Part shown: positions 19,357 to 38,366 of the stretch, one piece after another
Layout of the letters: the number at the start of each line of letters is the position of its first letter
Numbering within the stretch: position 1 is the first letter of the stretch
Source of the DNA: Dongia mobilis
GTDB lineage: Bacteria; Pseudomonadota; Alphaproteobacteria; Dongiales; Dongiaceae
NCBI RefSeq assembly: GCF_945906275.1
Contig: NZ_CAMDRA010000014.1
Location: 1 to 38,614, forward strand
Direction: 5' to 3'
Length of the DNA: 38,614 nt
The notes under the pieces: generated by a model
Database searches by the model: none
Told to the model about the DNA's origin: nothing
What the model saw: the letters and a program-made list of their open reading frames with translations, nothing else
Program-made: the position numbers and the translations under genes

Positions 19357-19381
19357 CCAATCTCTTTCCAAGGAACATCTC

Positions 19382-20656: not shown

Positions 20657-20676
20657 CAGTAGAGGACAAGAAACGC

Positions 20677-20707
20677 CGTCACCCTTCGTGAAGGCGGTGG
20701 ATCCACG
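20677..20707 (+). repeat. REP-like palindromic element, copy 1
   Basis: CGTCA (20677-20681), 19 nt, then ATCCACG (20701-20707) match the spacing and ends of the copies at 29.3 kb. The inner segment shares GAAGGCG with the 29.3-kb left copy and can form CACC/GGTG or CCTTC/GAAGG stems. It lies in the 150-bp gap between two convergent genes (stops at 20656 and 20807). I see nothing else in that gap. Confidence 0.6.
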
Positions 20708-20806
20708 CGTTGCTCTCGTCAGTCGCCCACAGGCTCGCGGTTGGTCCGCCTCAATGCTTTCAAGAATGGGCGGCCCATGACAGCGAGGTAAAGAGCGTCG
20801 GCGCCC

Positions 20807-21157
20807 TTATGGGAGTAGGATATACGTCTTTCTGACCGTCTCATGGATTTCCCAGATACCGAGGCTCTCGGCGGGAAAATAGAGGGCGTCGCCGGCCTTG
20901 ATTTCGATGACCTGGCCGTTGTCGGCGTGGAAGGTGCAGTGTCCGGCGACGAAGTGCGCGAATTCGGCCTTGCGGATCTGGCGCTTCCATTTGCCCGGGC
21001 TGCATTCCCAGATACCGAAATCCGGTTCCTTGTCCTTATCCGTGGGCGATGTGCCGCGCAGTTGTGCCACCGGCTCGCCGACCGGTTCCGCGACCTTGCC
21101 CCAATCTTCGAGGGCCGCCGAAGTGAGGCCGGCGGTGTTGGCAAGGCGCTTGATCAT
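20807..21157 (-). CDS. Small cupin-domain protein (Cupin_3/DUF861-like)
   Basis: This 116-residue single cupin has the W-E-C-S-P-G-K-W-K-R start of the barrel and E-F-A-H-F-V-A-G-H-C-T-F-H, then K-A-G-D-A-L-Y-F-P-A and W-E-I-H-E-T-V-R-K-T-Y. The pattern is that of the DUF861/EutQ-like cupins, often uncharacterised sugar- or amine-related enzymes or binding proteins. His residues are present in the first motif, but the usual second-motif His is not clear, so metal binding is uncertain. It lies downstream of nothing obvious on its own strand and is convergent with the M20 gene. A longer overlapping frame at 20719-21144 was discarded because it has no domain and is Arg/Ser-rich. Confidence 0.8.
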   Translation of the reverse strand: MIKRLANTAGLTSAALEDWGKVAEPVGEPVAQLRGTSPTDKDKEPDFGIWECSPGKWKRQIRKAEFAHFVAGHCTFHADNGQVIEIKAGDALYFPAESLGIWEIHETVRKTYILLP

Positions 21158-21191
21158 GGATGGGCTCCTGGGGCGAGATTGGTGAGATTGC

Positions 21192-21719
21192 TTAGTGGCT
21201 TTCCGGGACCGGCTGGAAAGCCATCGCTTCGGCGAGGGCGGCGTTGAGTTCGGCGGTCGACAATTCGCCTTTGTACATGTCGCGCAGGCCGTTCACTTCC
21301 TTGATTTCTTTTGGATTCTTGAGGAGCCCGGAAGCGATCGTCAACCAGGTAAATGCGGTCTTCTTGTCGACCGGACTACCCTGCCCGCGCGCGTTCATGA
21401 CGGCAAGCCCCAGCATGGCATCAGGGAAGCCTTGTTTGGCGGCGCGGCCATACCATTCGCGCGCCAGCGCAAAATTGGCAGGCCCGGCATCGCCATAATG
21501 ATAGTAACCGGCGAGCTTGAACTGCGCCACAGGGTCGCCTTCCGGCGCCATTTCCTTGAGTTTGAGATAGGCGCCGACCTTGTTGCCCTCAAGCTCCATC
21601 TTCAGCACGTCCTGGAGGTCCTCAGGGGCGGCTAGGGCGCGCGAGGGGGCAATGGCATGCGCCGCCACGACCAACAATAGCGCGGCGATGAAATGGGGAA
21701 TGAATCGCTTTTTTGACAT
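21192..21719 (-). CDS. Secreted Sel1/TPR-like repeat protein
   Basis: From ATG 21719 the product is 175 residues. It has a Lys/Arg-rich start and a hydrophobic core ending A-L-A-A, a signal peptide, followed by helical repeats. One Sel1-type unit reads D-P-V-A-Q-F-K-L-A-G-Y-Y-H-Y-G and continues A-R-E-W-Y-G-R-A-A-K-Q-G. A second reads D-A-M-L-G-L-A-V-M, then A-F-T-W-L-T-I-A. Such proteins act as periplasmic scaffolds or regulators, but no partner is evident. The frame stays open to 21842, but the extra 41 residues include a His-rich run with no secretory character, so the start before M-S-K-K-R is preferred. It lies 34 bp before the cupin gene on the same strand. Confidence 0.78.
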   Translation of the reverse strand: MSKKRFIPHFIAALLLVVAAHAIAPSRALAAPEDLQDVLKMELEGNKVGAYLKLKEMAPEGDPVAQFKLAGYYHYGDAGPANFALAREWYGRAAKQGFPDAMLGLAVMNARGQGSPVDKKTAFTWLTIASGLLKNPKEIKEVNGLRDMYKGELSTAELNAALAEAMAFQPVPESH

Positions 21720-21941
21720 GGCCGGAGAATTGCCGATCTTGGCGCGTCGTGCAACCGCGACGGCAAGGCTTCCGATGCCAACGTGATGGTGGTCACAATG
21801 ACCCCCCATCCGATTGCCCCGACCGATTACTCCGTCCGGCATTTTCTACCCGGCAAAAAGATCCCGGTCCCGGCGCCTGGGGTGGCGACGGGCTTGACCA
21901 TGTCCGTCCCGGTGGCATCCCACCAGGGCGTCAGCCGTGTA

Positions 21942-22214
21942 TCAGTTGTCCTTGCGGACGCTGGTGAACTGATCCTCAAGGATGCTCTTCACCAGATCCT
22001 GGACGAACTCCGCCGTTGTCTCGGTGCCATGCTTGGCGACCAGGGCGAACAAAGCCGCCGAAATCGACATGGTGCCGATGGTGTCGAACGGAACGCCCTT
22101 CTTGAAAGCGTCTTCCCAGAAGGCGTTGAACATCTCGAAGCACAGCTTGCGCTGCTCTTCGTCGGTAATCGGGGGCGCGCTCATTTTCTGCCCTTGTGCC
22201 AATGCGGTCTCCAT
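21942..22214 (-). CDS. Small conserved-looking helical protein of unknown function
   Basis: I do not recognise this protein. From ATG 22214 it is 90 residues, acidic and largely helical: E-E-Q-R-K-L-C-F-E-M-F-N-A-F-W-E-D-A-F, an Ala/Ser-rich middle (M-S-I-S-A-A-L-F-A-L-V-A) and a helix ending E-D-Q-F-T-S-V. There is no signal peptide and no metal motif. AAGGAG lies 6 nt before the chosen ATG, which decides the start; ATGs at 22220 and 22265 are less well placed. A 222-bp gap separates it from the Sel1 gene downstream, and I see no gene in that gap. Confidence 0.6.
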   Translation of the reverse strand: METALAQGQKMSAPPITDEEQRKLCFEMFNAFWEDAFKKGVPFDTIGTMSISAALFALVAKHGTETTAEFVQDLVKSILEDQFTSVRKDN

Positions 22215-22245
22215 AGCCATCTCCTTGATCGAACGGTTGACCGCG

Positions 22246-22254
22246 TTATCCACA
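22246..22254 (+). promoter_or_regulatory. Single perfect DnaA-box sequence
   Basis: TTATCCACA matches the DnaA-box consensus TTATNCACA. It lies about 32 bp upstream of the small gene at 21942-22214. Only one copy is seen here, with no AT-rich unwinding region, so it could be a regulatory DnaA site or chance. Confidence 0.3.
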
Positions 22255-22419
22255 GCAAGCCCCATGCCATCGTTGAATCATTACAGGATGTTGGGGTGAT
22301 TGATGCCCGTTCGACGAGTCGTGGTAGTGATTTGACCCGTAGCCTCATAATAGCTGATTAACGAACGACCCAGGTCCTTCGATTCGGGGAAAATACTGCC
22401 GACTTGCCTGACCGAGGCT

Positions 22420-24015
22420 CTATTTCAGGAAATCGGCTGCTTCATGTACTTCGATAACTGTCGGCCCATCTTCCTTGAGGGCCTGCCCGATGGCGATCTT
22501 CAGCTCTGCGAGGCTGCCCGGTTTCACCGCCTTGGCGCCGAAAGCCAGGGCCAGGGCCTGGTAATCCGGGTTGCGCGGCTTGACGCCCAGTTCCGGGATG
22601 TCGAGTTCGATCATGTCCTTGGCGATCTGGCCGAAGGCGTCATTGTTCCACACCAGGATGGGCAGGGGTAAGTGCTGCTCGACCGCGGTCCCCAGATCCT
22701 GCACCGTGAACATGAAGCCGCCGTCGCCGGCCAGCGCCACGACGGGTTTTTCGGGGCAGGCGATCTTGGCCCCGATCGCGGCGGGCAGGGCATAGCCCAG
22801 CGTGCCGAAGCCGCATGGGTGGAACCAGCCACGCGGGCCCTCGAACGGAAAGGTCAAATTGCCCGTATAGGCAATCTGGGTCATGTCGCTGACGACGATT
22901 CCGTCGGCCGGCAGGACTTCGCGCAGGGCGTCCAGCACCTTGACATGCTTCTGTTGCAGCGGCGTCAGATCGGCGCGGATCAAGCCTCGCAGCTCGGACG
23001 CGGTGGCAAGGTCAGGCTTGCGGCCCGCCCTGATCCCGTCGGTCAGTGCCTTCAAAGTCGGGCCGGCATCGGCCAGCAGACCGATGCTGGGCGCATAATC
23101 CCGAGTCAACGTATAGGCGTCGAGATCTATCCGGATAAGCTTGCCGCTCAGGTTCAGGCGGTCGACCCAGGAATCCGTCTCCGCCATCTCGGTCCCGGCG
23201 GCTATGACCAGGTCGGCATGCTCCAGAAGCTTCTGGGTGGCTGGCAGTACCAGTGTGCTGCCCAGGCTCTGCGCGTGGCTGTGCGGCAGGACGCCCTTGC
23301 CAGCGGTGGTGGTGACGCACAGCGCCCCTGATTTCTCCACAAAGGCCTTTACCTCCGCTGCACAATCCAGGGTGCCGCCACCGACGATGAGGATCGGCGC
23401 CTTGGCGCCGTCAATGAGCGCGATGGCGGCTGCGATATCGGCTGCGCTGGCCTTCGGTCGCTGCGCGATCTGTCGCTTCGGCTGGCCGATATTGGCCGGA
23501 GCCGCCAGCATGTCGAGCGGAAATTCCAGCACCACGGGGCGCGGCCGGCCGGTTTCAAACAGTCTGTAGGCATCGGCCATCGCCTGCGGCAGTTCGGCAG
23601 CAGATTTCACGGTCTGGGCGAAACCGGTCAGCGGTGCAATGGCCGCGCGCTGATCAGTGATTTCATGGAGGCGACCACGGCCCTTGCCAAGATCGCCAGT
23701 CGCGTTGACGCTGCACAGGATCAGGACCGGCACGGAATCGGAATAGGCCTGGCCGATCGGTGTCGCCGCGTTCATCAGGCCCGGCCCGGTGATCAGGCAG
23801 GCAACGCCCGGCTTACCGGATGCGCGCGCATACCCATCGGCCATGAAGCCGGCACCCTGCTCATGCCGCACGCCGATATGGCGCATCTTGCGATCGGCCA
23901 GGCCACGATAGAGGTCGAGGGTGTGCACACCCGGTATGCCGAACACGGTGTCGACGCCATAGGTCTCGAGCAATGCAATGGCGGCATGGCCGCCGATCTG
24001 ATTGGCACTCATCAT
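22420..24015 (-). CDS. TPP-dependent decarboxylase, 5-guanidino-2-oxopentanoate decarboxylase-like
   Basis: The 531-residue enzyme has the three domains of the acetolactate synthase/decarboxylase family. The pyrimidine domain begins G-V-D-T-V-F-G-I-P-G-V-H-T-L-D-L-Y-R-G-L, with Glu52 in R-H-E-Q-G-A-G-F-M-A-D-G-Y-A. A central domain (about 190-330) follows. The pyrophosphate domain has G-D-G-G-F-M-F-T-V and, after about 25 residues, W-N-N-D. The P-G-V-H-T-L-x-L-Y-R-G-L sequence is the one I associate with the AruI type, which decarboxylates 2-oxo-5-guanidinopentanoate (2-ketoarginine) in the arginine transaminase pathway. No AruH-like transaminase is adjacent, but a D-amino-acid dehydrogenase, which can yield 2-oxo acids, lies 5 kb away. 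Other 2-oxo acids are possible. It is divergent from an AEC transporter gene. Confidence 0.82.
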   Translation of the reverse strand: MMSANQIGGHAAIALLETYGVDTVFGIPGVHTLDLYRGLADRKMRHIGVRHEQGAGFMADGYARASGKPGVACLITGPGLMNAATPIGQAYSDSVPVLILCSVNATGDLGKGRGRLHEITDQRAAIAPLTGFAQTVKSAAELPQAMADAYRLFETGRPRPVVLEFPLDMLAAPANIGQPKRQIAQRPKASAADIAAAIALIDGAKAPILIVGGGTLDCAAEVKAFVEKSGALCVTTTAGKGVLPHSHAQSLGSTLVLPATQKLLEHADLVIAAGTEMAETDSWVDRLNLSGKLIRIDLDAYTLTRDYAPSIGLLADAGPTLKALTDGIRAGRKPDLATASELRGLIRADLTPLQQKHVKVLDALREVLPADGIVVSDMTQIAYTGNLTFPFEGPRGWFHPCGFGTLGYALPAAIGAKIACPEKPVVALAGDGGFMFTVQDLGTAVEQHLPLPILVWNNDAFGQIAKDMIELDIPELGVKPRNPDYQALALAFGAKAVKPGSLAELKIAIGQALKEDGPTVIEVHEAADFLK

Positions 24016-24034
24016 ATCCCCTGACTTGATCTAT

Positions 24035-24054
24035 GGACCGTTTTCGGCCGGTCC
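24035..24054. promoter_or_regulatory. Inverted repeat between the TPP enzyme and AEC transporter genes
   Basis: GGACCG (24035-24040) and CGGTCC (24049-24054) are perfect 6-bp arms 8 nt apart, 20 bp upstream of the decarboxylase start within the 131-bp divergent gap. A second small repeat, AGCTG-AAAG-CAGCT, follows near 24072. Either could be an operator for the divergent pair. No regulator gene is adjacent. Confidence 0.35.
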
Positions 24055-24146
24055 GAATTGGTGCCGGACTTTAGCTGAAAGCAGCTGTATGCAGCAATAG
24101 ACGCGGCAGCACTTTTCCGGCTAGAAATGGCTTCTCAGGAGAGCTT

Positions 24147-25028
24147 ATGGATCTGTTGCATCAACTTGCCGCCATCATCCTGCCGGTGCTGGTTGTGCCG
24201 GCCATTGGCTTTATCTGGGCACGATCAGGCAATACCTTCGACAATCGCTTTGTCACGCAACTGGTCACCAATATCGGAACGCCCGCGCTCGCAGCCGACG
24301 CACTCACGCGCATTCGCGTCGAAACCGGCGCTCTCGTGGAAATGGCTGGCCTGACAGCGATTTGCTTTGCGGGGTTCCTGGTCCTCGGCCTCATCGTACT
24401 GAGGGTAATGCGGCTGCCGAACCATTCCTATCTGCCCGCCCTGATCTTTCCAAATACCGGCAATATGGGCCTGCCGCTGGCCTTGTTCGCCTTCGGCAAT
24501 GAGGGCCTTGCTTTCGCCGTCGTGTTCTTCGCCATTTCCATCACGGCGCAATTCACGATCGGCATGTCACTCGCTTCAGGCAGCTTCAGCATTGCCCGCC
24601 TGGCGCGCATGCCCCTCATCTACGCCATCATCTTTGCACTGGTGGCGCTGTCCTTTGGCTGGCAATTGCCGGCCTATGCCAGCAACACGCTGCAATTGCT
24701 GGGCGGCGTTACCATTCCCCTGATGCTGCTGGCACTCGGCGTGTCGCTGGCACAACTCCGCGTCACACGCCTGCCGCGCAATCTCTTGCTGTCGCTGGTG
24801 CGCCTGGGTGGTGGTGCCGTGGTCGGCTTCCTGGTCGGTCATTTCATCGGCGCATCCGACCTGGCGACCGGTGTGCTGATCATCCAGAGCACCATGCCTG
24901 TGGCGGTCTTCAACTATCTCTTCGCCCAATACTACAACCGCGAACCGGCCGACGTTGCCTCGATGGTGGTCATCACGACCGCCCTGTCCTTCGTCACCTT
25001 GCCGCTGTTGCTCTATTTCGTCTTGTAG
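24147..25028 (+). CDS. AEC-family (auxin efflux carrier-like) transporter
   Basis: The 293-residue, highly hydrophobic protein has about ten transmembrane helices. The typical AEC segments F-P-N-T-G-N-M-G-L-P-L-A and L-G-V-S-L-A-Q-L are present, as is the C-terminal S-T-M-P-V-A-V-F-N-Y-L-F-A. Bacterial AEC members export or import small organic acids such as malate or malonate. The cargo is unknown here, but divergence from a 2-oxo-acid decarboxylase and proximity to a hydrolase suggest an organic acid or amine made or used locally. CAGGAGAG precedes the ATG. It ends 24 bp before the CocE-like gene, suggesting co-transcription. Confidence 0.88.
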   Translation: MDLLHQLAAIILPVLVVPAIGFIWARSGNTFDNRFVTQLVTNIGTPALAADALTRIRVETGALVEMAGLTAICFAGFLVLGLIVLRVMRLPNHSYLPALIFPNTGNMGLPLALFAFGNEGLAFAVVFFAISITAQFTIGMSLASGSFSIARLARMPLIYAIIFALVALSFGWQLPAYASNTLQLLGGVTIPLMLLALGVSLAQLRVTRLPRNLLLSLVRLGGGAVVGFLVGHFIGASDLATGVLIIQSTMPVAVFNYLFAQYYNREPADVASMVVITTALSFVTLPLLLYFVL

Positions 25029-25052
25029 ACGGTTTTCCCAGGGGACATCACC

Positions 25053-27080
25053 ATGCGTATCGTCAATGAGTTTCCGCACGCCGTGCGGCATGTCGAGAAT
25101 ATCTGGATCCCCGTGCCGGCCAATGGCACGGATGGCGCCGCCAATCTCGCCGCACGCATGTGGCTGCCGCAGGATGCCGAGCAGAATCCGGTGCCCGCAA
25201 TCATCGAGTGCGTACCCTATCGCAAACGCGACGGCCTGCGCTTTCGCGACGATGAAATGCATCCTTACACCGCCGGCCATGGCTATGCGGTCCTGCGCAT
25301 TGATCTGCGCGGCACCGGTGAATCGGAAGGCCTGCCGGATGACGAGTACACGGTGGCGGAACAGGATGACCTTATCGCCGCCATTGCCTGGATCGCGGCG
25401 CAGCCCTGGTGCAGCGGCAATGTCGGCATGATGGGTATTTCCTGGGGTGGCTTCAACAGCCTGCAGGTGGCGGCGCGCCAACCGGAAGCCTTGAAGGCGA
25501 TCATCACGGTCGACGCCTCGGACGACCGCTACAATGACGATGTCCATTACATGCAGGGCGTGCTGCTGCACGATAATTTTTCCTGGGCGTGCGCGATGTA
25601 TGCGTATGCCGTGCTGCCGCCTGACCCGGAACTGGTGGGCGAACGCTGGCGGCAGATGTGGCAGGGCCGCCTGCGGCATTACAGGTTTCCGTTCCGAATC
25701 TGGGGCGGGCATCAGCGGCGCGACGCCTATTGGCGCCAGGCCTCGGTGATCGAGGATTACAGCGCCATCAAATGCGCGGTCTTCGCCGTGGGTGGTTGGG
25801 AAGATGGTTATTCCAATGCCGTGCCACGCCTCTGCCAGCACATCAAGGGGCCGGTCAAGGGTTGGGTCGGTCCCTGGGGTCATACCTATCCGCATAACGG
25901 CCTTCCGGGACCAGCCGCGGGCTTCCTGCAGGAGGCGCTCCGTTGGTGGGACCAATGGCTGAAGGACAAGGATACGGGCGTCACGAAGGATCCGAAGATC
26001 ATCGCCTGGATGAATGATTCATATGCCCCGGACCCCTGTGCCATGGAACGGCCCGGCCGCTGGATCGCCGAGAACGCATGGCCGAGCCCGCGCATCGCGA
26101 CCGAGACGGTCAAGTTCGGCCGGCATACGCTGGGCCATGCGCCGGAAGCGGTCAGCCTTTCCGTGAACTCGCCGCAGACCTGCGGCCTCAGTTCGGTCGA
26201 ATGGTGTTCCTATGGCGGCAGCGACGGTGACTATCCATCGGAGCAGCGCGGTGATGACGGCATGTCGCTCTGCTTCGACGGCTTGCCGCTCAAGGATCGG
26301 TGCGAGATTTTCGGCATGCCGGTGGTGGAACTGGCCTTCGCCGTCGACAAGCCAGTGGCGCGGGTCGCTGTGCGCCTCAATGATGTGGCACCGGACGGTG
26401 CCTCGACGCGCGTTACCTTCTGCGTGTTCAGCCTCAATCACAAGGACGACCAGGCCAATCCGCAGGACCTGGTGCCGGGGCAGCGCTACGTGGCGCGCAT
26501 ACCGCTCAACTATATCGCCCACGCCTTCCTGCCGGGCCATCGCCTGCGGGTGGCCGTCTCGACCAATTACTGGCCGATGATGATGCCGGCCCCGGAAGCG
26601 GTCACGCTGACCCTCTTCACGGAAGGCTGCCATCTGGAATTGCCGGTGCGGCCAACCGCTGCGAAGGATCCGGCTTTCGACCTTGCCGAACCCGAAAAGG
26701 CGCCGCATGCGCCGGGCCATGTGACGCGCGAAGGTTCATCGAAGCGCGAGGCGCGGATCGATATCGCCACGGGCGAGACAGTGCTCATCAATCACAAGGA
26801 TGCCGGCGGCTATCATTTCTCGGATATCGGAATCACCTCGGATTGTCGGGTGATCGAAACCTATCGCATCAAGCCCAACGACCCTCTCAGCTATCATGTC
26901 GAGATCAGCTATGAGCAGATGCTGAAAGGTCCGGATTGGGAGGCCAGGACCGTCAGCGTCGCCAGCCTCACCACACGGAAGGATGTGTTCCGCATCGCCG
27001 CCCGCATGGACGCCTATGACAACGGCACGCGCATTTTCAGCGACCAGGAAGCTTACGATCTGAAGCGGGACTATTGCTGA
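25053..27080 (+). CDS. CocE/NonD-family serine hydrolase
   Basis: The 675-residue protein has an X-Pro dipeptidyl-peptidase-like alpha/beta hydrolase domain. It includes A-I-I-E-C-V-P-Y-R-K-R-D, L-R-I-D-L-R-G-T-G-E-S-E-G, the nucleophile G-I-S-W-G-G (Ser130), and the acid and base in G-G-W-E-D-G-Y-S-N and G-P-W-G-H-T-Y-P-H. A C-terminal jelly-roll domain starts about residue 420, with A-R-V-A-V-R-L-N-D-V-A-P-D-G. The family includes cocaine esterase, glutaryl-7-ACA acylases and peptidases. There is no signal peptide, so it acts in the cytoplasm. The last 130 residues (after about 545) are longer than in cocaine esterase and may add a function. Substrate cannot be read from sequence. It is convergent with the DUF4136-like gene, 19 bp away. 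Confidence 0.88.
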   Translation: MRIVNEFPHAVRHVENIWIPVPANGTDGAANLAARMWLPQDAEQNPVPAIIECVPYRKRDGLRFRDDEMHPYTAGHGYAVLRIDLRGTGESEGLPDDEYTVAEQDDLIAAIAWIAAQPWCSGNVGMMGISWGGFNSLQVAARQPEALKAIITVDASDDRYNDDVHYMQGVLLHDNFSWACAMYAYAVLPPDPELVGERWRQMWQGRLRHYRFPFRIWGGHQRRDAYWRQASVIEDYSAIKCAVFAVGGWEDGYSNAVPRLCQHIKGPVKGWVGPWGHTYPHNGLPGPAAGFLQEALRWWDQWLKDKDTGVTKDPKIIAWMNDSYAPDPCAMERPGRWIAENAWPSPRIATETVKFGRHTLGHAPEAVSLSVNSPQTCGLSSVEWCSYGGSDGDYPSEQRGDDGMSLCFDGLPLKDRCEIFGMPVVELAFAVDKPVARVAVRLNDVAPDGASTRVTFCVFSLNHKDDQANPQDLVPGQRYVARIPLNYIAHAFLPGHRLRVAVSTNYWPMMMPAPEAVTLTLFTEGCHLELPVRPTAAKDPAFDLAEPEKAPHAPGHVTREGSSKREARIDIATGETVLINHKDAGGYHFSDIGITSDCRVIETYRIKPNDPLSYHVEISYEQMLKGPDWEARTVSVASLTTRKDVFRIAARMDAYDNGTRIFSDQEAYDLKRDYC

Positions 27081-27099
27081 GAGGTGCCGTTGCCGTCGG

Positions 27100-27705: not shown

Positions 27706-27898
27706 GGGCTGATCCCTCAACGCGGCGCCTTGCGCCGACATGTGTTCCTGTTGTTCCACATAGCGGAAAGCGACCATGTCTGACAACACGCGGCATTTGC
27801 TTTAGTTTCCGCCTCAAGCCATCATATTCGCCATGGTCGGCCTTGCCCCATGCCGGTTTGGCATGGCTCGCCGCACGAAAATGAAGGGAGACGCTGGC

Positions 27899-29313: not shown

Positions 29314-29316
29314 CCT

Positions 29317-29356
29317 CAATCGTCATGGTACGCGAAGGCGTACCATCCACGAGTTT
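29317..29356 (+). repeat. REP-like palindromic element, copy 2 (left arm of an inverted pair)
   Basis: This 40-nt arm matches the reverse complement of 29386-29425 at 34 of 40 positions. It contains an inner hairpin: GGTACGC (29327-29333), loop GAAG, GCGTACC (29338-29344). The CGTCA-N19-ATCCACG frame (29321-29351) equals that of the copy at 20677. Confidence 0.8.
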
Positions 29357-29385
29357 CTTTCCGCGAAAACTCAGTAGTTGCAGGC

Positions 29386-29425
29386 AAACTCGTGGGTGGT
29401 CGGCCTGCGCCGACCATGACGATTG
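29386..29425 (-). repeat. REP-like palindromic element, copy 3 (right arm of the inverted pair)
   Basis: Read on the minus strand this is a 40-nt copy of the left arm. Its inner hairpin is GGTCGGC, loop GCAG, GCCGACC. Relative to the left arm, the two middle pairs changed from A-T and C-G to C-G and G-C, so both stems remain perfect. The two arms are separated by 29 nt (29357-29385). The pair fills the 127-bp gap between convergent genes. Confidence 0.8.
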
Positions 29426-29440
29426 GGTGTGTTCGAACGC

Positions 29441-30691
29441 TCAATACCTCGCGTACTGAAACGGCTCCGCGTCTATCTCCGGTTTTCTCCCCAACATCTG
29501 ATCTACCAGCAACCGCGATGAGCCGCAGGCCATCGTCCAGCCCATATGGCCATGTCCAGAGTTGAGCCACAGATTGGAAACCGGTGACGGCCCCATGATC
29601 GGCGGGCCGTCCGGCGTCATGGGGCGGAGGCATGACCAGTAATCCGGCCGGTCATAGAGGGCGGCCTTGGGGAAGAGGTCGCGTGCCACCCGCAGCATGT
29701 GCGAGAAATTGCCTGGCTCGAACTCGGTGTCATAGCCGGCGAAATCGGCCGTGGCGGTCAAACGCAGCCGGTTGCCCAGACGCGAGAACGCCACCAGATG
29801 TTCCTCATGCACGCCGCCGATGGTGGGTGTTTCCGCCGGATCGGCGATCGGCAGGGTGACCGAATAGCCTTTCACCGGAAAGATCGGCAGGTTGAATCCG
29901 ATCGTCCGTGAGAGTAGCGGCGCATAGGAGCCGAGCGCCATCACATATTGATCGGCGCTGTACTTGCCCTTGTCCGTCACGATCTCCGTGATGCGCTTGC
30001 CCTGCTTCTCGATGCGCTGGATGGTTTCGCCGAACTGGAAGGTGACGCCCATGGCCTTGGCGCGTTCGGCAAGGCCCAGCGTGAATTTCCGTGCATCACC
30101 CGATTCATCGTTGGGCGTGTGCATGCCGCCGGCGAGCTTGTCCTTGGCATGTTTGAGGCCCGGCTCCAGCGCCACCAGCTGGTCGGGATCGAGGAAGTTC
30201 ATCTCGACCCCCTGATCCATCAGGAAGCGCATGTTTTCCTTGCCGGCGCGATAAGCACCGGCATCGCTATAGATATAGATGGCGCCCTTGGCGATACGGT
30301 CCCATTCCAGGCCTTCTTCGCGCCCGACGCGCAAGGTTTCGGCTTGGCTGTAGACGCAGAGCTTGATCTTGGTTTTGGTGGCGGCGCGGTTGCGCGCCGT
30401 GGTGCAGTTGCGCAGGAATTGCAGGCTCCACAGCCACATGCGCGGATCGAGGCGCAGGCGATAGCGCAGGGATGTGTCATTTCGCCACAGCGATTTCAGC
30501 AGGATCATCGGCGCCCGGGGGCTGGCCCAGGAACTGGCGTGGCCGGGCGTCACCAATCCCGCATTGGCAAAGCTGGTTTCCCTTGCTGCTTCCGGTCGCC
30601 GGTCGATGACCACGACCTCATGGCCTTCCTTGGCCAGATAATAGGCGCTGGTGACGCCCAGCAACCCGGCACCCAAGACGACGATCCGCAT
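29441..30691 (-). CDS. dadA: D-amino-acid dehydrogenase (DadA-like flavoprotein)
   Basis: The 416-residue protein opens with R-I-V-V-L-G-A-G-L-L-G-V-T-S-A-Y-Y-L, the FAD-binding Rossmann motif, then E-V-V-V-I-D-R and S-F-A-N-A-G-L-V-T-P-G-H-A, typical of DadA. Later segments match too: V-F-P-V-K-G-Y-S-V-T-L-P, R-L-T-A-T-A-D-F-A-G-Y, and the C-terminal R-P-M-T-P-D-G-P-P-I-M-G with N-S-G-H-G-H-M-G-W-T. DadA oxidises D-amino acids, often D-alanine, to 2-oxo acids and passes electrons to the respiratory chain at the inner membrane. No alanine racemase gene (dadX) is adjacent, although a racemase-fold gene lies on the other strand just downstream. The start at 30691 places the Rossmann motif at the N-terminus; an open extension to 30820 adds 43 unrelated residues. 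Confidence 0.9.
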   Translation of the reverse strand: MRIVVLGAGLLGVTSAYYLAKEGHEVVVIDRRPEAARETSFANAGLVTPGHASSWASPRAPMILLKSLWRNDTSLRYRLRLDPRMWLWSLQFLRNCTTARNRAATKTKIKLCVYSQAETLRVGREEGLEWDRIAKGAIYIYSDAGAYRAGKENMRFLMDQGVEMNFLDPDQLVALEPGLKHAKDKLAGGMHTPNDESGDARKFTLGLAERAKAMGVTFQFGETIQRIEKQGKRITEIVTDKGKYSADQYVMALGSYAPLLSRTIGFNLPIFPVKGYSVTLPIADPAETPTIGGVHEEHLVAFSRLGNRLRLTATADFAGYDTEFEPGNFSHMLRVARDLFPKAALYDRPDYWSCLRPMTPDGPPIMGPSPVSNLWLNSGHGHMGWTMACGSSRLLVDQMLGRKPEIDAEPFQYARY

Positions 30692-30731
30692 ACCTGCCCC
30701 GTTCGCTTTTTGTGTTTTATCCGCCGCAACA

Positions 30732-30759
30732 TTGCCATAAACCGCCCCTACAGCATAAG
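30732..30759 (+). promoter_or_regulatory. Candidate promoter for the secreted gene at 30795
   Basis: TTGCCA (30732-30737) and CATAAG (30754-30759), spacing 16 bp, match the -35 and -10 consensus at 5 and 4 of 6 positions. Transcription would start near 30766. That leaves too short a leader for an ATG at 30774 but suits the ATG at 30795. Confidence 0.45.
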
Positions 30760-30794
30760 GTCTGCTCCGCAGAATGAAAGACGGAACCCCCTCG

Positions 30795-31268
30795 ATGACA
30801 TACCGGTTTGCGATGATCACGCTATCGGCCCTGATCCTTTGTTCAGGTGCTGCCTATGCGCAGGAAGCAACGCCGATCCCGGCCGGCCCGGCGCTGTCGG
30901 TCGACGAGTTGCGCGGCTGTCTGTGCGAGGAGCCGAAGCTTGAAGCGGCCCGCCAGGATATCGCCATGCGTCGCGCCATTCTCGACGAGCGGCAGGCGCA
31001 GCTGACGGCACTCGACGGGCAGATCGCGCAGCGCCGCAAGACCCTCGACCCGAACGATCTCATCGGTCAGGAGCTGCTGAAGAATTCGATGGCTCAGGCA
31101 GCGGCCTTGCGCGACCTCATCCAATCCGATGTGCGCCTCTCGCTCAACCAGGCGGTGAGCGATTACAACGCCATGGCATCGAACTATACCGCGACCTGCG
31201 TCAATCGCCCGCGCTATGCCTATGATGTCGACATGGCGAAGAAGGATTTGGTCTGCCCGCTGCCTTGA
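30795..31268 (+). CDS. Small periplasmic protein with a coiled-coil-like helix, unknown function
   Basis: From ATG 30795 this is 157 residues: a signal peptide (T-Y-R-F-A-M-I-T-L-S-A-L-I-L-C-S-G, cut after A-Y-A), then a mature domain I do not recognise. The mature part has R-G-C-L-C-E-E-P near its start and C-V-N-R-P plus V-C-P-L-P near its end, four cysteines that could form two disulfides. Between them is a long, charged helix (A-R-Q-D-I-A-M-R-R-A-I-L-D-E-R-Q-A-Q-L) with heptad-like spacing. An in-frame ATG at 30774 would add seven residues with an acidic start and is less suited to secretion. It is convergent with the glycosyltransferase gene, nine bases away. Confidence 0.7.
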   Translation: MTYRFAMITLSALILCSGAAYAQEATPIPAGPALSVDELRGCLCEEPKLEAARQDIAMRRAILDERQAQLTALDGQIAQRRKTLDPNDLIGQELLKNSMAQAAALRDLIQSDVRLSLNQAVSDYNAMASNYTATCVNRPRYAYDVDMAKKDLVCPLP

Positions 31269-31277
31269 CGCGCTTTC

Positions 31278-32438
31278 CTAGCGCCGCGCCAGGCCCAGCA
31301 CGCCCTTGAAGAAGGCGGTGAAGGCCAGTTGCAGGCCGACGCACAAGGCCGTCGATGAGGGCACCAGCAAGCGCATCATGCTGCCGGTATCAAGATTGCC
31401 GAAGCCCGCCTCCCGCCAGGTGAGGATGGCGACGGCGATGCCGATCATGCCTGCGACCGTCAGCACGCCGCCGATCACCAGCAGGAATTCCAACGACAAG
31501 CGATCGGCCAGCGAACGAAACCTTGCACTGGGCGGCAGCAGCCGATTGGCGATGCAGAATTGCTTGGCCAGCACTGCAAGCCCCACCGCCTGCACGCCGA
31601 CGATGACCGCGACCCCGGCCAGCAGCAGCGTGTTGATGTCGAAGGTGATGTTGGCGATGCGGATCGGGCCGACCGACAGCGCCATGAGGACGATGAGGCC
31701 GAACAGCGCCAGCAACAAGCCGGGATAGAAGAACAGCCATTCGGGGCTCAGCATCAGCAGGAAGCGGAGATGCCGCCAGCCATCGCGCCAGCTCCGAAGA
31801 TGCGGCGGTCGTGACCGTCCATCGGGCGAGAGCGTCGTCGGCACTTCGGTGACCTTGAGGCCGTTGAGCGTCGCCTTGACGATCATCTCGCTGGCAAACT
31901 CCATGCCGGTGGTCCTGAGATCGAGGGCGCGAATGGCATCGCGCGAAAAGCCGCGCAGGCCGCAGTGAAAGTCGCGCAAGGGGCTCTTGAACAGGATGCG
32001 GCCGATGCCGGTCAGCACAGGATTGCCGAAATAGCGGTGCAAGGGCGGCATGGCGCCGGGCTCGATGCCGCCCGCGAAGCGATTGCCCATGACCAACTCA
32101 TGGCCCGCCCGCAAGCGTTCGACAAAGGCCATCAGATTGGAGAAATCATAGCTGTCGTCGGAATCGCCCATGATGATGAAGCGCCCGGCAGCAGCCTCGA
32201 TCCCGCCGATGAGCGCTGCGCCATAACCCTTGACCGGGATATCGACCACGCGCGCCCCGGCAGTCCGTGCCAGATCCTGTGATCCGTCGGTGCTGCCATT
32301 GTCGGCGATCAGCACCTCGCCACTGACCCCATGCGTGTCCAGGAACTGCCGCGCCTTGCGCACGCAGACTTCAAGTGTCTCTGCCTCATTGAGGCAGGGC
32401 ATCAGGATGGTGAGTTCGCACGAACTGGCTGTCGTCAT
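31278..32438 (-). CDS. Membrane-anchored family 2 glycosyltransferase
   Basis: The 386-residue protein has a GT-A catalytic domain: L-T-I-L-M-P-C-L-N-E-A-E-T-L, V-L-I-A-D-N-G-S-T-D-G-S, metal-binding G-D-S-D-D (Asp92, Asp94), and F-H-C-G-L-R-G-F. About four hydrophobic C-terminal segments follow (roughly 225-385). The layout resembles dolichol-phosphate-mannose/polyprenyl-phosphate glucosyltransferases, which load a sugar on a lipid carrier at the cytoplasmic face of the inner membrane. Sugar and carrier are not determinable. ATG 32438 shares its A with the TetR stop (TGATG), so the two genes are translationally coupled. A longer frame to 32531 lies within the TetR gene. Regulation through the TetR operator upstream is likely by position. 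Confidence 0.87.
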   Translation of the reverse strand: MTTASSCELTILMPCLNEAETLEVCVRKARQFLDTHGVSGEVLIADNGSTDGSQDLARTAGARVVDIPVKGYGAALIGGIEAAAGRFIIMGDSDDSYDFSNLMAFVERLRAGHELVMGNRFAGGIEPGAMPPLHRYFGNPVLTGIGRILFKSPLRDFHCGLRGFSRDAIRALDLRTTGMEFASEMIVKATLNGLKVTEVPTTLSPDGRSRPPHLRSWRDGWRHLRFLLMLSPEWLFFYPGLLLALFGLIVLMALSVGPIRIANITFDINTLLLAGVAVIVGVQAVGLAVLAKQFCIANRLLPPSARFRSLADRLSLEFLLVIGGVLTVAGMIGIAVAILTWREAGFGNLDTGSMMRLLVPSSTALCVGLQLAFTAFFKGVLGLARR

Positions 32439-33073
32439 CAGTTGACCTGCGCGCGTGCGGTCTGTGATTGCTTGGCCCGGCTCGACCCTTCGACCTTGAA
32501 GGGGGGTGGCGCCGCGGTGATCTTCAAGCAAGCTGCCACGGCCTCTGACTCGACCCGTTGCATGCCGGGCGCCAGCAGCCCATAGACCATGAAGGTGGCG
32601 GGCTGCAATATGAGGCCTAATATCTGTGCCGTCAGCAGATCGGCATCAGCGATCACGATATCACCCTGCTTCTTTGCCTCGCTGACCAATTTGTGCAGCG
32701 CCTGTACCGGCGATTGCGATTTCGCGCGCAGCTTCGGCAGTTCCTGGTGCTGGGTCAGCAGCAGGAAGCGGAACATCAAAGGCTCCTCATCGAAGAAGCG
32801 GCAGAAGCGGTGGATCATCGCACCGAGCCGGCTGGCGAAATCGCCCTTCGCCTTGGCGAGGTCGTGCAGCTCCTTGGCCAATGCTGCGTAATTCTCCGAG
32901 AAAAGTTTCCAGGCGAGGTCTTCCTTCGAGGCGTAATGGCGATAGAGTCCCCCCTCGGCGATCCCGGCCAGGGTCGCTATGTCGCGCACCGAGGTGCCGA
33001 TGACGCCCTTGGTGACGAAGAGTTCCAGGGCCGCCTGTTTGATCCGGTTTCGTGTCGCCACGCCGCGCGGCAT
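32438..33073 (-). CDS. TetR/AcrR-family transcriptional regulator
   Basis: The 211-residue protein has the TetR DNA-binding domain at residues 5-50: R-I-K-Q-A-A-L-E-L-F, T-S-V-R-D-I-A-T-L-A-G-I-A-E-G-G-L-Y-R-H-Y and K-E-D-L. A helical ligand-binding half follows, and the Pro-rich tail is probably disordered. TetR proteins are usually repressors released by a small ligand, often acting on their own gene and on a divergent one. A perfect 8-bp-arm inverted repeat 17 bp upstream of its ATG is a likely operator. GGGGGAAG precedes the ATG. The coupled glycosyltransferase and the divergent EF-G-like gene are the natural candidate targets. The ligand is unknown. Confidence 0.92.
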   Translation of the reverse strand: MPRGVATRNRIKQAALELFVTKGVIGTSVRDIATLAGIAEGGLYRHYASKEDLAWKLFSENYAALAKELHDLAKAKGDFASRLGAMIHRFCRFFDEEPLMFRFLLLTQHQELPKLRAKSQSPVQALHKLVSEAKKQGDIVIADADLLTAQILGLILQPATFMVYGLLAPGMQRVESEAVAACLKITAAPPPFKVEGSSRAKQSQTARAQVN

Positions 33074-33089
33074 GCTTCCCCCGAAGCTG

Positions 33090-33109
33090 CTGTGAACGAA
33101 TGTTCACAG
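33090..33109. promoter_or_regulatory. Probable TetR operator palindrome
   Basis: CTGTGAAC (33090-33097), spacer GAAT, GTTCACAG (33102-33109): perfect 8-bp arms with a 4-bp spacer. It lies 17 bp upstream of the TetR ATG, over or just after the candidate minus-strand -10 box. The size and symmetry suit a TetR-family dimer site. Confidence 0.75.
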
Positions 33110-33136
33110 GATGCCCGATCGCGCACCGCTTGCCAA
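33108..33136 (-). promoter_or_regulatory. Candidate tetR promoter
   Basis: On the minus strand, TTGGCA (plus positions 33131-33136) and CATCCT (33108-33113) are 17 bp apart. The -35 matches 5 of 6; the -10 is weak. The -10 abuts the palindrome at 33090-33109, so a bound repressor would block it, consistent with autorepression. Confidence 0.4.
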
Positions 33137-33159
33137 GCGTCAGCAAGACTCACCTTCAT

Positions 33160-33172
33160 ATTGCGGCGCAAT
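33160..33172. promoter_or_regulatory. Second perfect palindrome in the tetR/EF-G-like gap
   Basis: ATTGCG-G-CGCAAT is a perfect 13-nt inverted repeat. It ends just before the candidate plus-strand -35 box at 33177, so it could be a binding site for a second regulator of the EF-G-like gene. Confidence 0.35.
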
Positions 33173-33176
33173 GGAA

Positions 33177-33206
33177 TTGATCGAATTTTGTTCTGCCTTT
33201 TATCCT
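33177..33206 (+). promoter_or_regulatory. Candidate promoter of the EF-G-like gene
   Basis: TTGATC (33177-33182) and TATCCT (33201-33206), spacing 18 bp, each match consensus at 4 of 6 positions. A start near 33213 would leave an untranslated leader of about 100 nt before ATG 33314. Confidence 0.33.
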
Positions 33207-33313
33207 TGCCAGTTGGCCATCGCCCCTGAAACACTTGGCGCATACCGGCCCCGCAGAAGACCGGACCTCTCCCGCGCCATCCTGCATGGCACATCAGCGA
33301 AAAGGAGGTCGAG

Positions 33314-35395
33314 ATGGCTACAGTCACTCAACATGCTGGAACTCAAAACGGCAGAGAACCGGGGGCGCCGCGCTGCGCCGCCATCGTTGGTCCCTATCTC
33401 AGCGGCAAGTCCGCGCTTCTTGAAAGTCTGCTCTTCGTCACCGGGGCCACCCATCGCAAGGGAACCGCCAAGGAAGGCAATACAATCGCCGACAGCTCCG
33501 CCGAAGCACGCGCCCGCAAGATGTCGGTCGAAGTCACCGCCGCGACCACCGACTATCTAGGGGAACGCTGGTGCTTCCTGGATTGCCCTGGCTCGGTCGA
33601 ACTGGCGCAGGAGGCGCGCAATGCGCTGATGGTGGCCGATGTCGCCATCGTCGTCTGTGAACCGGTGATCGAAAAGGCGCTGATGCTGGCGCCGACCCTG
33701 AAATTCCTCGACGATCATCAAATTCCGCACATCCTCTTCATCAACAAGATGGATGTCTCGACCCACCGCGTGCGCGAGATGCTTGACGCATTGCAGGCAG
33801 TCTCCAGCCGCCCACTGGTGCTGCGCCAGGTGCCGATCCGCGGCGCGGGCAAGGATGGCGGCGAAGTTACCGGCTATGTCGATCTGGTGAGCGAGCGCGC
33901 CTATAAATACCATCCGGGCCAGGAATCCGACCTCATCCAGATGCCGGAGGAAGTCCTGCCGCGCGAACAGGAAGCGCGCGGTCGCATGCTGGAATCGCTG
34001 GCTGATTTCGACGACCATCTGATGGAGAAAATCCTCAGCGACGTGGTGCCGCCGAAGGTGGAGATTTATCAGCAGTTCGCCAAGGATCTGGCGGCCGATC
34101 TGATCGTGCCCGTTCTGCTCGGTGAAGCCGAACGCGATGGCGGTGTGCGCCGTCTGTTGAAGGCGTTGCGCCACGAGGTTCCAGGACCGGAGGCCCTTGC
34201 ACAGCGCCTCGGCATTTCGAGTTATGATGCCTCGACCCTCGTCTTCAAGACCTATCACCAGCCCCATGCCGGCAAGCTCTCGCTGGCGCGCATCTTCGGC
34301 GGCCGCGTCAGCGAAGGGTCCGTGCTCAACGGTGCCCGGGTTGCCGGCGTTCTGCGGCCCAAGGGCAATGCCTTTGAGAAAGTGCCGCATGCCAATACCG
34401 GCGAAGTGGTGGCGCTGGCGCGGATGGAGGAGGTGCGGACCGGCGATCTTCTCACCGCTTCAGGCAAGAAAAACCCCGACTTCACCTGGCCTACTCCGCT
34501 CGAGCCGCTCTTTGTCCTGGCGATGGATGCCGAGAACCGCGCCGATGAGGTGAAATTGACCACGGCGCTGGCCAAGCTTACCGAGGAAGATACCTCGCTC
34601 ACCTTCACCCATGATCCGGACACGCATGAACTTCTGCTCTCCGGCCAGGGGGAGATTCATCTGCACATTGCCTTCGATCGGTTGAAATCGCGCTTCAGCC
34701 TGCCAATGAAACATCGCCGCCCGCAGGTGAGCTACAAGGAAACCATCCGCAGCGGCGTGAAGCAGCATGCCCGCTTCAAGCGGAAATCGGGCGGCCATGG
34801 CCAGTTCGCCGATATCCATATCGAGGTCTGGCCGCTCGCGCGTGGCACCGGATTTGAATTCCATGATCGCGTCGTCGGCGGCTCGGTGCCGCGGCAGTTC
34901 ATCGGCTCTGTCGAGGAGGGAGCGCGGGAATCACTGGCGCGTGGTCCGCTTGGCTTCCCCGTGGTCGATGTCGCTGTCGCCCTGTTCGATGGCCAGTTCC
35001 ATGCCGTCGACAGTTCCGACATGGCTTTCAAGACGGTGGCGCGCCAGGCCATGCAGGAAGCCCTGCCGCAATGCGGGCCGATCCTGCTGGAGCCGATCTT
35101 CTCGGTCGAGGTCTCAGCGCCGGCGGAATTCACCGCGCGCGTCCACAACCTCGTCACGGGCCGCCGCGGTCAGATCCTTAGCTTCCAGGCCAAGGAAGAT
35201 TGGACGGGGTGGGAAGTTGTGCAGGCCCTGGTGCCGCAATCGGAGCTCCATGACATGATCATCGAACTCCGCTCCCTCACCTTGGGGGTCGGCAATTTTT
35301 CGTACCAGTTCGATCATCTGCAGGAGTTGAGCGGAAGGCTTGCGGATAAGGTCATCGAGCAGCGCCAAGCGGTGCCGCACAAGGGCGCTGCCTGA
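33314..35395 (+). CDS. EF-G-like translational GTPase paralogue with altered G-domain motifs
   Basis: The 693-residue protein has the EF-G domain order: GTPase (about 20-270), domain II, domain III with S-G-Q-G-E-I-H-L-H-I, domain IV with G-H-G-Q-F-A-D and G-G-S-V-P-R-Q-F-I, and domain V ending near F-S-Y-Q-F-D-H-L. The GTP motifs differ from EF-G. The P-loop is G-P-Y-L-S-G-K-S (26-33), and switch II is D-C-P-G-S (90-94) in place of D-T-P-G-H, so the His needed for GTP hydrolysis in canonical EF-G is Ser94. N-K-M-D (144-147) is intact. Alphaproteobacteria often carry such a divergent copy; it is not the housekeeping FusA, which normally sits in the rpsL-rpsG-tuf cluster. The ribosome site is very strong: AGGAGG (33303-33308), 5 nt before the ATG. 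Its role is unknown. Confidence 0.87.
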   Translation: MATVTQHAGTQNGREPGAPRCAAIVGPYLSGKSALLESLLFVTGATHRKGTAKEGNTIADSSAEARARKMSVEVTAATTDYLGERWCFLDCPGSVELAQEARNALMVADVAIVVCEPVIEKALMLAPTLKFLDDHQIPHILFINKMDVSTHRVREMLDALQAVSSRPLVLRQVPIRGAGKDGGEVTGYVDLVSERAYKYHPGQESDLIQMPEEVLPREQEARGRMLESLADFDDHLMEKILSDVVPPKVEIYQQFAKDLAADLIVPVLLGEAERDGGVRRLLKALRHEVPGPEALAQRLGISSYDASTLVFKTYHQPHAGKLSLARIFGGRVSEGSVLNGARVAGVLRPKGNAFEKVPHANTGEVVALARMEEVRTGDLLTASGKKNPDFTWPTPLEPLFVLAMDAENRADEVKLTTALAKLTEEDTSLTFTHDPDTHELLLSGQGEIHLHIAFDRLKSRFSLPMKHRRPQVSYKETIRSGVKQHARFKRKSGGHGQFADIHIEVWPLARGTGFEFHDRVVGGSVPRQFIGSVEEGARESLARGPLGFPVVDVAVALFDGQFHAVDSSDMAFKTVARQAMQEALPQCGPILLEPIFSVEVSAPAEFTARVHNLVTGRRGQILSFQAKEDWTGWEVVQALVPQSELHDMIIELRSLTLGVGNFSYQFDHLQELSGRLADKVIEQRQAVPHKGAA

Positions 35396-35419
35396 TTTGA
35401 ACTGGCGATGAACGCAGAA

Positions 35420-35449
35420 CGTCATCCCCCGCCAGCGCGGAGGATGACG
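35420..35449. terminator. REP-like hairpin/bidirectional terminator between convergent genes
   Basis: CGTCATCC (35420-35427) pairs with GGATGACG (35442-35449). After one mismatch, CCGC (35429-35432) pairs with GCGG (35437-35440) around loop CAGC, giving 12 bp in a 30-nt hairpin. It starts with the same CGTCA as the elements at 20.7 and 29.3 kb and has the same 19-nt inner length, though its right end differs. It lies in the 64-bp gap between convergent stops (35395 and 35460). A short TTCTTG follows on the plus side. Confidence 0.65.
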
Positions 35450-35459
35450 CTTCTTGTGG

Positions 35460-36119: not shown

Positions 36120-36267
36120 TGCGGTGCCTCCCAGATGGTTTGATGTCTGGTCAAACTATCAGAAAGTGTCCTTGCCGACAAAGACAGTCGGATGAAATGC
36201 GCTTTCGCTGGAGTGTCGCCGCCATGGCACCAGTCGAATGGCCACCGGATGTGAGCGGCGCACGAAA

Positions 36268-38142: not shown

Positions 38143-38256
38143 CGTTGATCCTTGGAAAGGACAAAAATAACAAAGATTTAGGACCTAACGCTTTTTCACG
38201 TCCATGATCTCACTTGTTTGTTATAGTAGCGCAGTCTAAAAAATCGGAACTTTTAT

Positions 38257-38276: not shown

Positions 38277-38366
38277 ATTAGGATGGCATACTTGGACGAG
38301 AGCGCGGCCGGGACCGGACAGGTCCCGCAAGACGCGGTCGGTCCTGGGGCCCTGGGGAGGATGTAA

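Follow-up and report, generated by a model that had tools for sequence, protein, structure and literature searches.

What are the short palindromes that stand between convergent genes in the genome of Dongia mobilis, and how did they come to be there? The question is raised by a stretch of 38,614 nucleotides (nt), hereafter the window, which is part of a genome (G000) of 3.72 Mb in 271 contigs, with a GC content of 63% in a 727-kb sample. A preliminary description of the window had listed six convergent gene pairs with gaps of 4, 9, 19, 64, 127, and 150 nt, all of which are present in the sequence, and had placed a CGTC palindrome in each of the three long gaps (64, 127, and 150 nt), where they are indeed found. 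These palindromes are CGTC-tagged repetitive extragenic palindromic (REP) elements, mostly organized as head-to-head (HH) dimers of about 80–140 bp, that is, inverted pairs with the tags outward. They belong to the known kind of CGTC REPs, of which type A, one of the two monomer types distinguished here, is a small structural variant. Comparison of orthologous sites shows that such gaps are long because an element was inserted, and not the reverse.

Placement relative to gene orientation

Covariance models of the two monomer types, R1 for type A (built on 17 sequences) and R2 for type B, were used to search genomes; 150 candidates were scored in each, and the lists are lower bounds. G000 contains at least 93 type-A and at least 135 type-B matches. 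We dropped 8 of the 93 R1 and 11 of the 135 R2 matches as partial, overlapping, or near-threshold and added seven symmetric forms (one of eight symmetric loci, on C140, was left out), which gave at least 126 REP loci after clustering. Genes were called with a codon model and a gap-filling step (open reading frames, ORFs, of ≥100 aa); the codon model alone missed atypical genes such as that at 28702–29313 of the window. Between called genes lie 102 loci, in 99 gaps (three gaps hold two loci each), the remaining ones being near a stretch end (17), without data (2), or in called ORFs (5, three of them gap-filled).

Convergent genes flank 47 of the 102 placed loci, same-strand genes 51, and divergent genes 4; without gap filling the figures are 49/50/4. 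The 727-kb sample comprises 104 convergent, 476 same-strand, and 104 divergent gaps. The expectation is 15.5/71.0/15.5 by gap numbers and 8.2/61.5/32.4 by intergenic bases; relative to gap numbers, the convergent excess has a binomial p of 1.5e-13 and the divergent deficit a p of 4.7e-4. A strict pattern scan of the sample found copies in 10 of 104 convergent, 11 of 476 same-strand, and 0 of 104 divergent gaps (odds ratio, OR, 4.5; p 0.0014), and a wider scan in 12, 13, and 1 gaps, respectively (OR 4.6, p 4e-4). For 1.2 Mb of the congener G002, the strict counts are 12/187, 12/766, and 0/187 (OR 4.3, p 7e-4) and the wider ones 16, 17, and 0 gaps (OR 4.1, p 1.3e-4). As a control, eleven permuted tags gave 0–7 monomers each in the 727-kb sample, versus 42 for CGTC (score 6.5); the wider scan found 26 gaps in G000 and 33 in G002, versus 0–5 and 0–6 per permuted tag. 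Mapped over the G000 genome, as the preliminary description had proposed, and over 1.2 Mb of G002, the elements are strongly enriched between convergent genes and nearly missing from divergent gaps; the refuting outcome named there, a lack of convergent enrichment, did not occur. Its statement that same-strand and divergent gaps carry no copy holds within the window and fails genome-wide (51/102 and 4/102).

Nor does every convergent gap that is long enough hold an element, as had been proposed. Decayed and TGTC-tagged copies and some symmetric ones escape the strict scan, among them the copy at 20677 of the window, and occupancy and terminator counts were therefore redone with the wider scan and permuted-tag controls. 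Reading the 41 convergent gaps of ≥50 nt in the sample by eye added five copies (C14:20657, C4:2037, C4:26339, C12:34097, and C20:942). A copy is present in 10 of these 41 gaps by the strict scan, 12 by the wider scan, and 15 by eye; among gaps of ≥90 nt, the wider scan finds 10/22 and the eye 12/22. In the 1.2 Mb of G002, 16/74 gaps of ≥50 nt and 14/49 of ≥90 nt hold one.

Convergent or same-strand gaps account for 98 of the 102 placed loci in G000 and for all 24 intergenic elements in G002. Of the 51 same-strand copies, 35 lie closer to the upstream stop than to the downstream start; the median distances are 27 and 55 nt, respectively. Among the 47 convergent loci, 25 have the element within 25 nt of both stops. 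Type-A dimers are distributed 15/7/1 (convergent/same-strand/divergent) versus 17/26/3 for type B (convergent versus same-strand, Fisher p 0.038).

Such a distribution could in part be left by a functionless parasite, if dimers inserted anywhere and selection purged those in genes and promoters. The divergent depletion and the rarity of elements in codon-model genes (2/126 loci) are as purging would give, the 16 of 51 same-strand copies nearer the downstream start agree with it, and Di Nocera, De Gregorio and Rocco (2013; PMC3733652), cited here, like the papers below, for parts of the text, allow for parasitic DNA. The convergent share, however, is higher than expected even when counted per 3' end (31/71/0 expected, 47 convergent observed; p 0.001), and residual gap lengths and one conserved dimer, described below, also stand against it. 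We regard it as possible, though not as the answer we would expect.

Orthologous sites with and without an element

Element-free convergent gaps are short, with medians of 15.5 nt in G000 and 18 nt in G002 (strict scan), and dimer-bearing ones are reduced to a median of 32.5 nt (n = 32) when the dimer is subtracted. Random per-base insertion of a parasite would favour long gaps, which argues against it. Orthologous gaps were then compared directly, the sizes in the relatives being extrapolated from flank alignments. At C26:19678, the gap measures 2 nt in G000 and 118 nt in G002, where it holds a dimer. It measures about 13 nt in G001, 19 nt in G004, and 23 nt in G005, and 356 nt of other DNA without a monomer are found in G006, so that the dimer occurs in G002 only. 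Since the other gaps are dimer-free, that of G004 included, whose genome comes closest to G002 in this comparison (syntenic identity 85.4%), a single gain in G002 explains the pattern most simply. A second gap, C142:2212, measures 9 nt in G000 versus 116 nt in G002, which holds a dimer there; G006 and G005 are likewise dimer-free at this gap, with about 5 and about 19 nt, respectively, and G004 offers one flank only. At C26:13637, G000 has 510 nt with two elements and other DNA versus about −3 nt in G002. One gap of the window is likewise empty here and filled elsewhere:

16427–16467, no strand: same-strand gap, copy-free here (41 nt) and in G006 (43 nt), with a dimer in G004 (142 nt) and G002 (160 nt)

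Since orthologous convergent sites measure 2 or 9 nt without a copy and 116–118 nt with a dimer, gap length is a consequence of the element, and the three long gaps of the window are, most simply, long because each holds one.

A mobilizing enzyme that targets supercoiled or single-stranded DNA behind genes could produce the same placement by insertion alone, with neither selection nor function. Tobes and Pareja (2006; PMC1525189) describe, in the text drawn on here, REPs as frequent between convergent genes and such spaces as favourable targets, and a gap filled in one species tends to be filled in a second one too, in part by another kind of hairpin repeat. Of 129 orthologous gaps, convergent or same-strand, 19 are occupied in G000, and 8 of these are also occupied in G002, versus 10 of the 110 that are unoccupied in G000 (OR 7.3, p 9e-4; 7/15 versus 3/32, p 0.007, with both gaps ≥60 nt), in a test that uses a loose pattern and owes part of its signal to shared ancestry. 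Shared occupancy equally fits common descent or selection for a hairpin at that end, however. We consider such an insertion preference unlikely as the source of the bias.

Structure of the repeat family

The exact motif has 10 matches in the D. mobilis genome, and its reversed control none. As alignments and pair counts show, monomers share a stem of 8–9 bp starting with AT; the AT start was a requirement of the scan, and 6 of 17 type-A rows lack the first A-T pair. In type A, a 9-bp stem encloses a 4-nt loop and is followed by CCACG (17/17 alignment rows, which were selected for it). The stem covaries: 97.1% of cells are paired, 13 double-change cells are observed versus 3.2 in shuffles (0/500 reach this), and four stem pairs are changed on both sides (reached in 12/500 shuffles). 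Two enlarged loops recur, by 15 or 27 nt, the latter with an inner hairpin. Nineteen type-A monomers of 56–70 nt occur in the genome, and dimers often combine one long and one short arm. Type B has a 9-bp stem with CCCGGG, a 5-nt loop CTTGA, and a tail that is mostly CTG, CAG, or CGG.

Dimers with both arms sequenced comprise 27 A+A− and 47 B+B− among the at least 126 loci; the other loci are single, symmetric, mixed, or without sequence. Identical arms are avoided in type-B dimers (5/47 versus 11.0 in shuffles, p 0.003). This does not extend to a general rule, as type A gives 1/27 versus 1.2 in shuffles. TGTC-tagged dimers and a TGTC-tagged symmetric palindrome were seen in further convergent gaps (L023:2037–2165, L051:14097–14258, and L038:942–1021) and may represent a third monomer type, not covered by R1 or R2. 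One type-B dimer (L139:2290–2373, on C40 of G000) lies in frame within a 586-aa ORF, whose MobA-like NTP transferase domain (residues 392–551) is downstream of the insert.

In a named genome collection, the type-A motif was found in at least 115 stretches; among those listed are records of Rhodopila, Acidisphaera, Defluviicoccus, Methylobrevis, Oryzibacter, Ferrovibrio, Dongia, and Devosia, besides others.

The elements of the window

The window was searched with both covariance models, R1 without filters. The three long convergent gaps (20657–20806, 29314–29440, and 35396–35459), with their flanking genes, contain the following features.

19382–20656, plus strand: ArgE/DapE-family deacylase, converging on gap 20657–20806
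20677–20711, plus strand: decayed left monomer (R1 22.8 bits, E 6.6e-4; match 20674–20716)
20734–20782, minus strand: decayed right monomer of the long-loop type, read by eye against the type with the 15-nt-expanded loop, boundaries set by eye, position as in the orthologous dimers
20807–21157, minus strand: cupin-domain protein, facing gap 20657–20806
28702–29313, plus strand: protein without family match, converging on gap 29314–29440
29318–29360, plus strand: left monomer of the dimer in gap 29314–29440 (R1 69.7 bits)
29356–29386, no strand: spacer of the dimer, 17 of 31 columns variable among four species
29382–29424, minus strand: right monomer of the dimer, stem ATGGTCGGC, loop GCAG (R1 64.2 bits)
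29441–30691, minus strand: D-amino acid dehydrogenase, facing gap 29314–29440
33314–35395, plus strand: elongation factor G-type GTPase, converging on gap 35396–35459
35420–35449, no strand: symmetric 30-bp CGTC...GACG palindrome, identified by pattern (predicted fold −22.1 kcal/mol, z −5.5)
35460–36119, minus strand: aquaporin-type channel (MIP family; under the NCBIfam cut-off for aquaporin Z), facing gap 35396–35459

The element at 29318–29424 is a clean inverted pair with outward tags and the spacer in the middle. Each 43-nt monomer consists of CGTC, a 9-bp stem, a 4-nt loop (GAAG in the left one), the stem again, CCACG, and AGTTT. The whole pair is predicted to fold at −60.3 kcal/mol (z −8.8) and its single monomers at about −16 kcal/mol (−15.7 kcal/mol, z −4.65, for 29321–29351). 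The copy at 20677 is read as the left arm of a decayed dimer, 20677–20782, because G002 and G004 hold clear dimers in the orthologous gap; the stretch 20674–20790 folds barely better than its shuffles (z −1.1). The palindrome at 35420–35449 is weakly matched by R1 (11.7 bits, E 0.47), and its pattern is expected 0.13 times and present once in 12 of 100 shuffles. The rest of the window contains no other convincing copy, the best matches reaching 10.8 bits with R1 (E 0.8) and 12.8 bits with R2 (15976–16006, inside a gene, E 0.015). An Rfam search of the window at gathering thresholds returned one tRNA and left the palindromes unmatched.

Two genes of the window deserve comment. The product of 28702–29313 has 203 aa, looks secreted, and has no Pfam or NCBIfam match; its codon usage differs from that of the neighbours, and nothing aligns to it in the syntenic stretch of G001, where the flanking genes are close to each other. 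One of the short convergent gaps depends on a weak minus-strand ORF of 91 aa at 11256–11531 (coding score 6.6). This ORF may not be a gene, because the alignments flanking it are 28 nt apart in G002 versus about 420 nt in G000; the next minus-strand stop is at 11639, which would leave a convergent gap of 387 nt that is copy-free.

Collapse, inversion, and conservation of the copies

The gap that holds the 35420 palindrome in G000 is occupied in G006 by a full dimer of 103 nt, and for this reason the symmetric 30-bp forms, including 35420–35449, are read as collapsed dimers, as the sequences suggest. Read by eye, a dimer in G000 corresponds to a symmetric or nearly symmetric form in G002 at C60:3197, C19:13457, and C87:1452, and the reverse case is found at C39:4819.

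The dimer in gap 29314–29440 has a different history. The same 101-nt element, from CGTC to GACG, is present in G000, G002, G004, and G006, but in the latter (G006:C3:387751–387857) it is inverted in place, with the same convergent gene pair on either side. Indeed, the G006 spacer matches those of the three others at 24, 21, and 20 of 31 positions as reverse complement and at 8, 8, and 8 as it lies, versus a mean of about 7.8 and a maximum of 17 in shuffles. With G006 turned round, the arms vary among the four species in 2 of 70 columns versus 17 of 31 for the spacer (p 4e-9) and, in the adjacent gene, 230 of 417 third codon positions (p 7e-19). At this site the spacer drifts as fast as silent positions, whereas the arms hold nearly still, a near-invariance that counts against the functionless-parasite explanation.

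Terminators and other hairpins in the same places

Intrinsic bidirectional terminators, in which a hairpin with a U-tract ends both transcripts, would account for a position near both stops. Two further points agree with them: mapped ends at intrinsic terminators in Zymomonas are over-represented between convergent genes, according to the text of PMC7566282 drawn on here, and the letters behind the type-A tail are T-rich (5.3 T per 12). A U-tail is nevertheless missing. On the inner side, a T-tail score of ≥2.5 is reached by 0 of 70 type-A and 0 of 114 type-B monomers, and on the outer side by 1.4% and 2.6%, near the intergenic background (1.9% of intergenic 12-mers); type B, moreover, is just as frequent although its inner tail is not rich in T (2.3 T per 12). 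A terminator in which the type-A hairpin is combined with its AGTTTCTTT tail, taken as a candidate, is ruled out by these scores. A simple promoter and terminator scan of 19000–38614 gave 18 terminator-like sites (14.6 in shuffles) and none at the three elements. The U-tract terminator reading is not supported, and we hold it to be very improbable.

T-tailed terminators and the elements tend to exclude each other, which would suit U-tract terminators and also fits a division of labour. In convergent gaps of ≥50 nt, pooled over both species, a T-tailed hairpin is present in 56 of 87 element-free versus 7 of 28 element-bearing gaps by the wider scan (p 4e-4), and in 43/69 versus 5/18 by the strict scan (p 0.015; 9/69 in shuffles). 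Other hairpins also take the place of a dimer. By eye, a dimer in G000 corresponds to a C-rich palindrome in G002 at C113:4291, C112:6756, and C142:3827, and the reverse is seen at C19:6325; a pattern count gives three such pairs. At C87:12879, G002 has a T-tailed hairpin, and at C19:32860 and C128:765 the gap of the other species holds nothing of note. The C-rich palindromes form a second repeat family, CCCTCCCC...GGGGAGGG, often in inverted pairs (e.g., G000 C19:6326–6458 and the G002 orthologue of C113:4291). This family occurs in 5/104 convergent, 3/476 same-strand, and 1/104 divergent gaps of the G000 sample (convergent versus same-strand p 0.006) and in 6/187, 10/766, and 2/187 gaps of G002 (p 0.10).

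Search for a mobilizer

The Y1 transposase (PF01797) is present in 5 of 17 genomes of the family, with eight genes in all, and went undetected in G002 and G006, which lead the 17 searched genomes in type-A matches (at least 87 and at least 89 type-A, and at least 148 and at least 70 type-B matches, respectively). Counts do not differ significantly with Y1 presence in the 17 genomes (Mann–Whitney p 0.71 for R1 and 0.10 for R2, 150 scored candidates per genome). Flanks were scanned for four of the eight genes (L399–L402 were left out): L309 has one element about 560 nt away, L310 has elements at about 400 and 1300 nt, and L311 has none. The only PF01797 match of the D. mobilis genome, L019 (G000 C107:11262–11588), is followed, 73 nt past its stop, by a type-B dimer, with a GTPase-like gene facing it on the far side (read by eye). 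This adjacency is possibly due to chance, about 4% of genes being expected to have a dimer behind them if some 3500 genes are assumed.

Despite the L019 neighbour, the Y1 transposase was dropped as the mobilizer, because G002 and G006 are rich in elements without a match and because the text of PMC3733652, as far as drawn on, reports no association. Barring a recent loss of the gene, spread would not depend on a Y1 transposase encoded in the same genome, and at C26:19678 phylogeny favours an insertion in a lineage, that of G002, where no gene of the REP-associated tyrosine transposase (RAYT) class was found.

Discussion

The account that we consider probable combines inserted dimers, survival behind stop codons, a two-way 3'-end barrier, and some selection. 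The dimer would be the inserting unit, as the sites with and without it suggest. Insertions would survive mainly behind stops, since they disrupt neither a promoter nor a coding sequence there, and best between convergent genes, which offer a 3' end on each side; each insertion would turn a tiny convergent gap (median below 20 nt) into one of mostly about 100–150 nt. Later on, some copies would collapse to the symmetric 30-bp palindrome and some decay, and one seems to have flipped in place. An element in place is predicted to form a stable hairpin shortly after the stop codon of every transcript that reaches it, and a 3'-end role is plausible. The preliminary description had suggested termination, insulation of opposing transcripts, or mRNA stabilization, any of which may apply. 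The element could act as a two-way barrier, by pausing, Rho-type termination, or exonuclease block; such an RNA barrier is favoured for at least part of the copies because the elements are not U-tract terminators. At least some copies may be kept by selection.

Several observations weigh against this account. Half of the elements lie outside convergent gaps, and same-strand singletons have no consistent orientation, three of nine type-A singletons reading along transcription (by eye). The hairpins lack inner U-tails. The exclusion of terminators is confounded by length, as short gaps rarely have terminators: a T-tailed hairpin is found in 7 of 102 element-free gaps of 0–49 nt and in 3 of 18 element-bearing gaps when the element is excised. 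The arms in gap 20657–20806 differ widely among G000, G002, and G004, and strong arm conservation therefore concerns one site only; ectopic gene conversion from other copies could mimic it.

A bolder version, which we put forward tentatively and hold to be rather doubtful, treats CGTC dimers as actively moving units whose spread requires no Y1 (RAYT-class) transposase in the host genome, and convergent ends as exchangeable "hairpin slots". A slot would usually be a few to some 20 nt long when empty and would become occupied over evolution by one of three hairpins, a CGTC dimer, a C-rich palindrome unrelated to it, or a T-tailed terminator, the arms then being kept by selection even through in-place inversion.

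RIME elements of rhizobia are repeats of about 100 bp with two palindromes, located between genes. GTAG REPs and REPINs, which are associated with RAYT transposases, resemble the present elements in being short palindromes with a 4-nt tag, in having the inverted pair as a unit, and in their enrichment behind genes. They differ in the tag, which is CGTC here, and in the transposase, Y1 having been found in 5 of 17 genomes but not in G002 and G006.

The closest relationship is with the CGTC REPs defined in PMC3733652, which share the CGTC tag, for which TGTC or CCTC can stand, AT at the stem start, the hairpin, HH dimers with spacers, and the placement; their CCA-type tail has a counterpart in type A, whose rows were selected for it. 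The text drawn on describes tag-outward HH dimers without a dedicated transposase, located between convergent and same-direction genes near stops, mainly in alphaproteobacteria, and reports no transposase gene flanked by them. Families 1–2 have 8-bp stems, and families 3–4 have 9-bp stems and 5-nt loops, with some loop exceptions. Type A, with its 9-bp stem, 4-nt loop, and enlarged loops, fits none of the four as that text describes them, whereas type B fits the layout of family 3 or 4 (9/5) by size, its tails being mostly CTG or CAG and not CCA. Extinction of the CGTC families is one hypothesis offered there; here, in contrast, a recent insertion is the history favoured by phylogeny at one site. 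The bidirectional intrinsic terminators of Zymomonas (PMC7566282) also lie between two stops, in the description drawn on, but unlike them the present elements have no U-tract and form a dispersed multicopy family. In Bradyrhizobium, another REP lies in the overlapping 3' ends of a convergent pair, according to the part of PMC5082802 cited, and the portion of the RepRanger main text (PMC12306157) drawn on makes no mention of convergent genes.

Enrichment between convergent genes is thus already known, being in print (PMC3733652 and PMC1525189, in the parts cited). Among the titles and abstract openings that the literature searches returned, none described an orthologous empty site, an inversion in place, or a comparison of arm and spacer rates for CGTC REPs. 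The additions made here are, first, locus-level histories, in which gene ends compared with and without an element show that insertion creates the gap. Second, insertion is favoured in a lineage without a detected RAYT-class gene, against the published extinction hypothesis. Third, at one site the arms stay fixed and the spacer changes as fast as silent positions do. Should this hold at further sites, counts of substitutions in arms and spacers would make the long-standing question testable of whether REPs are parasites or parts of 3' ends.

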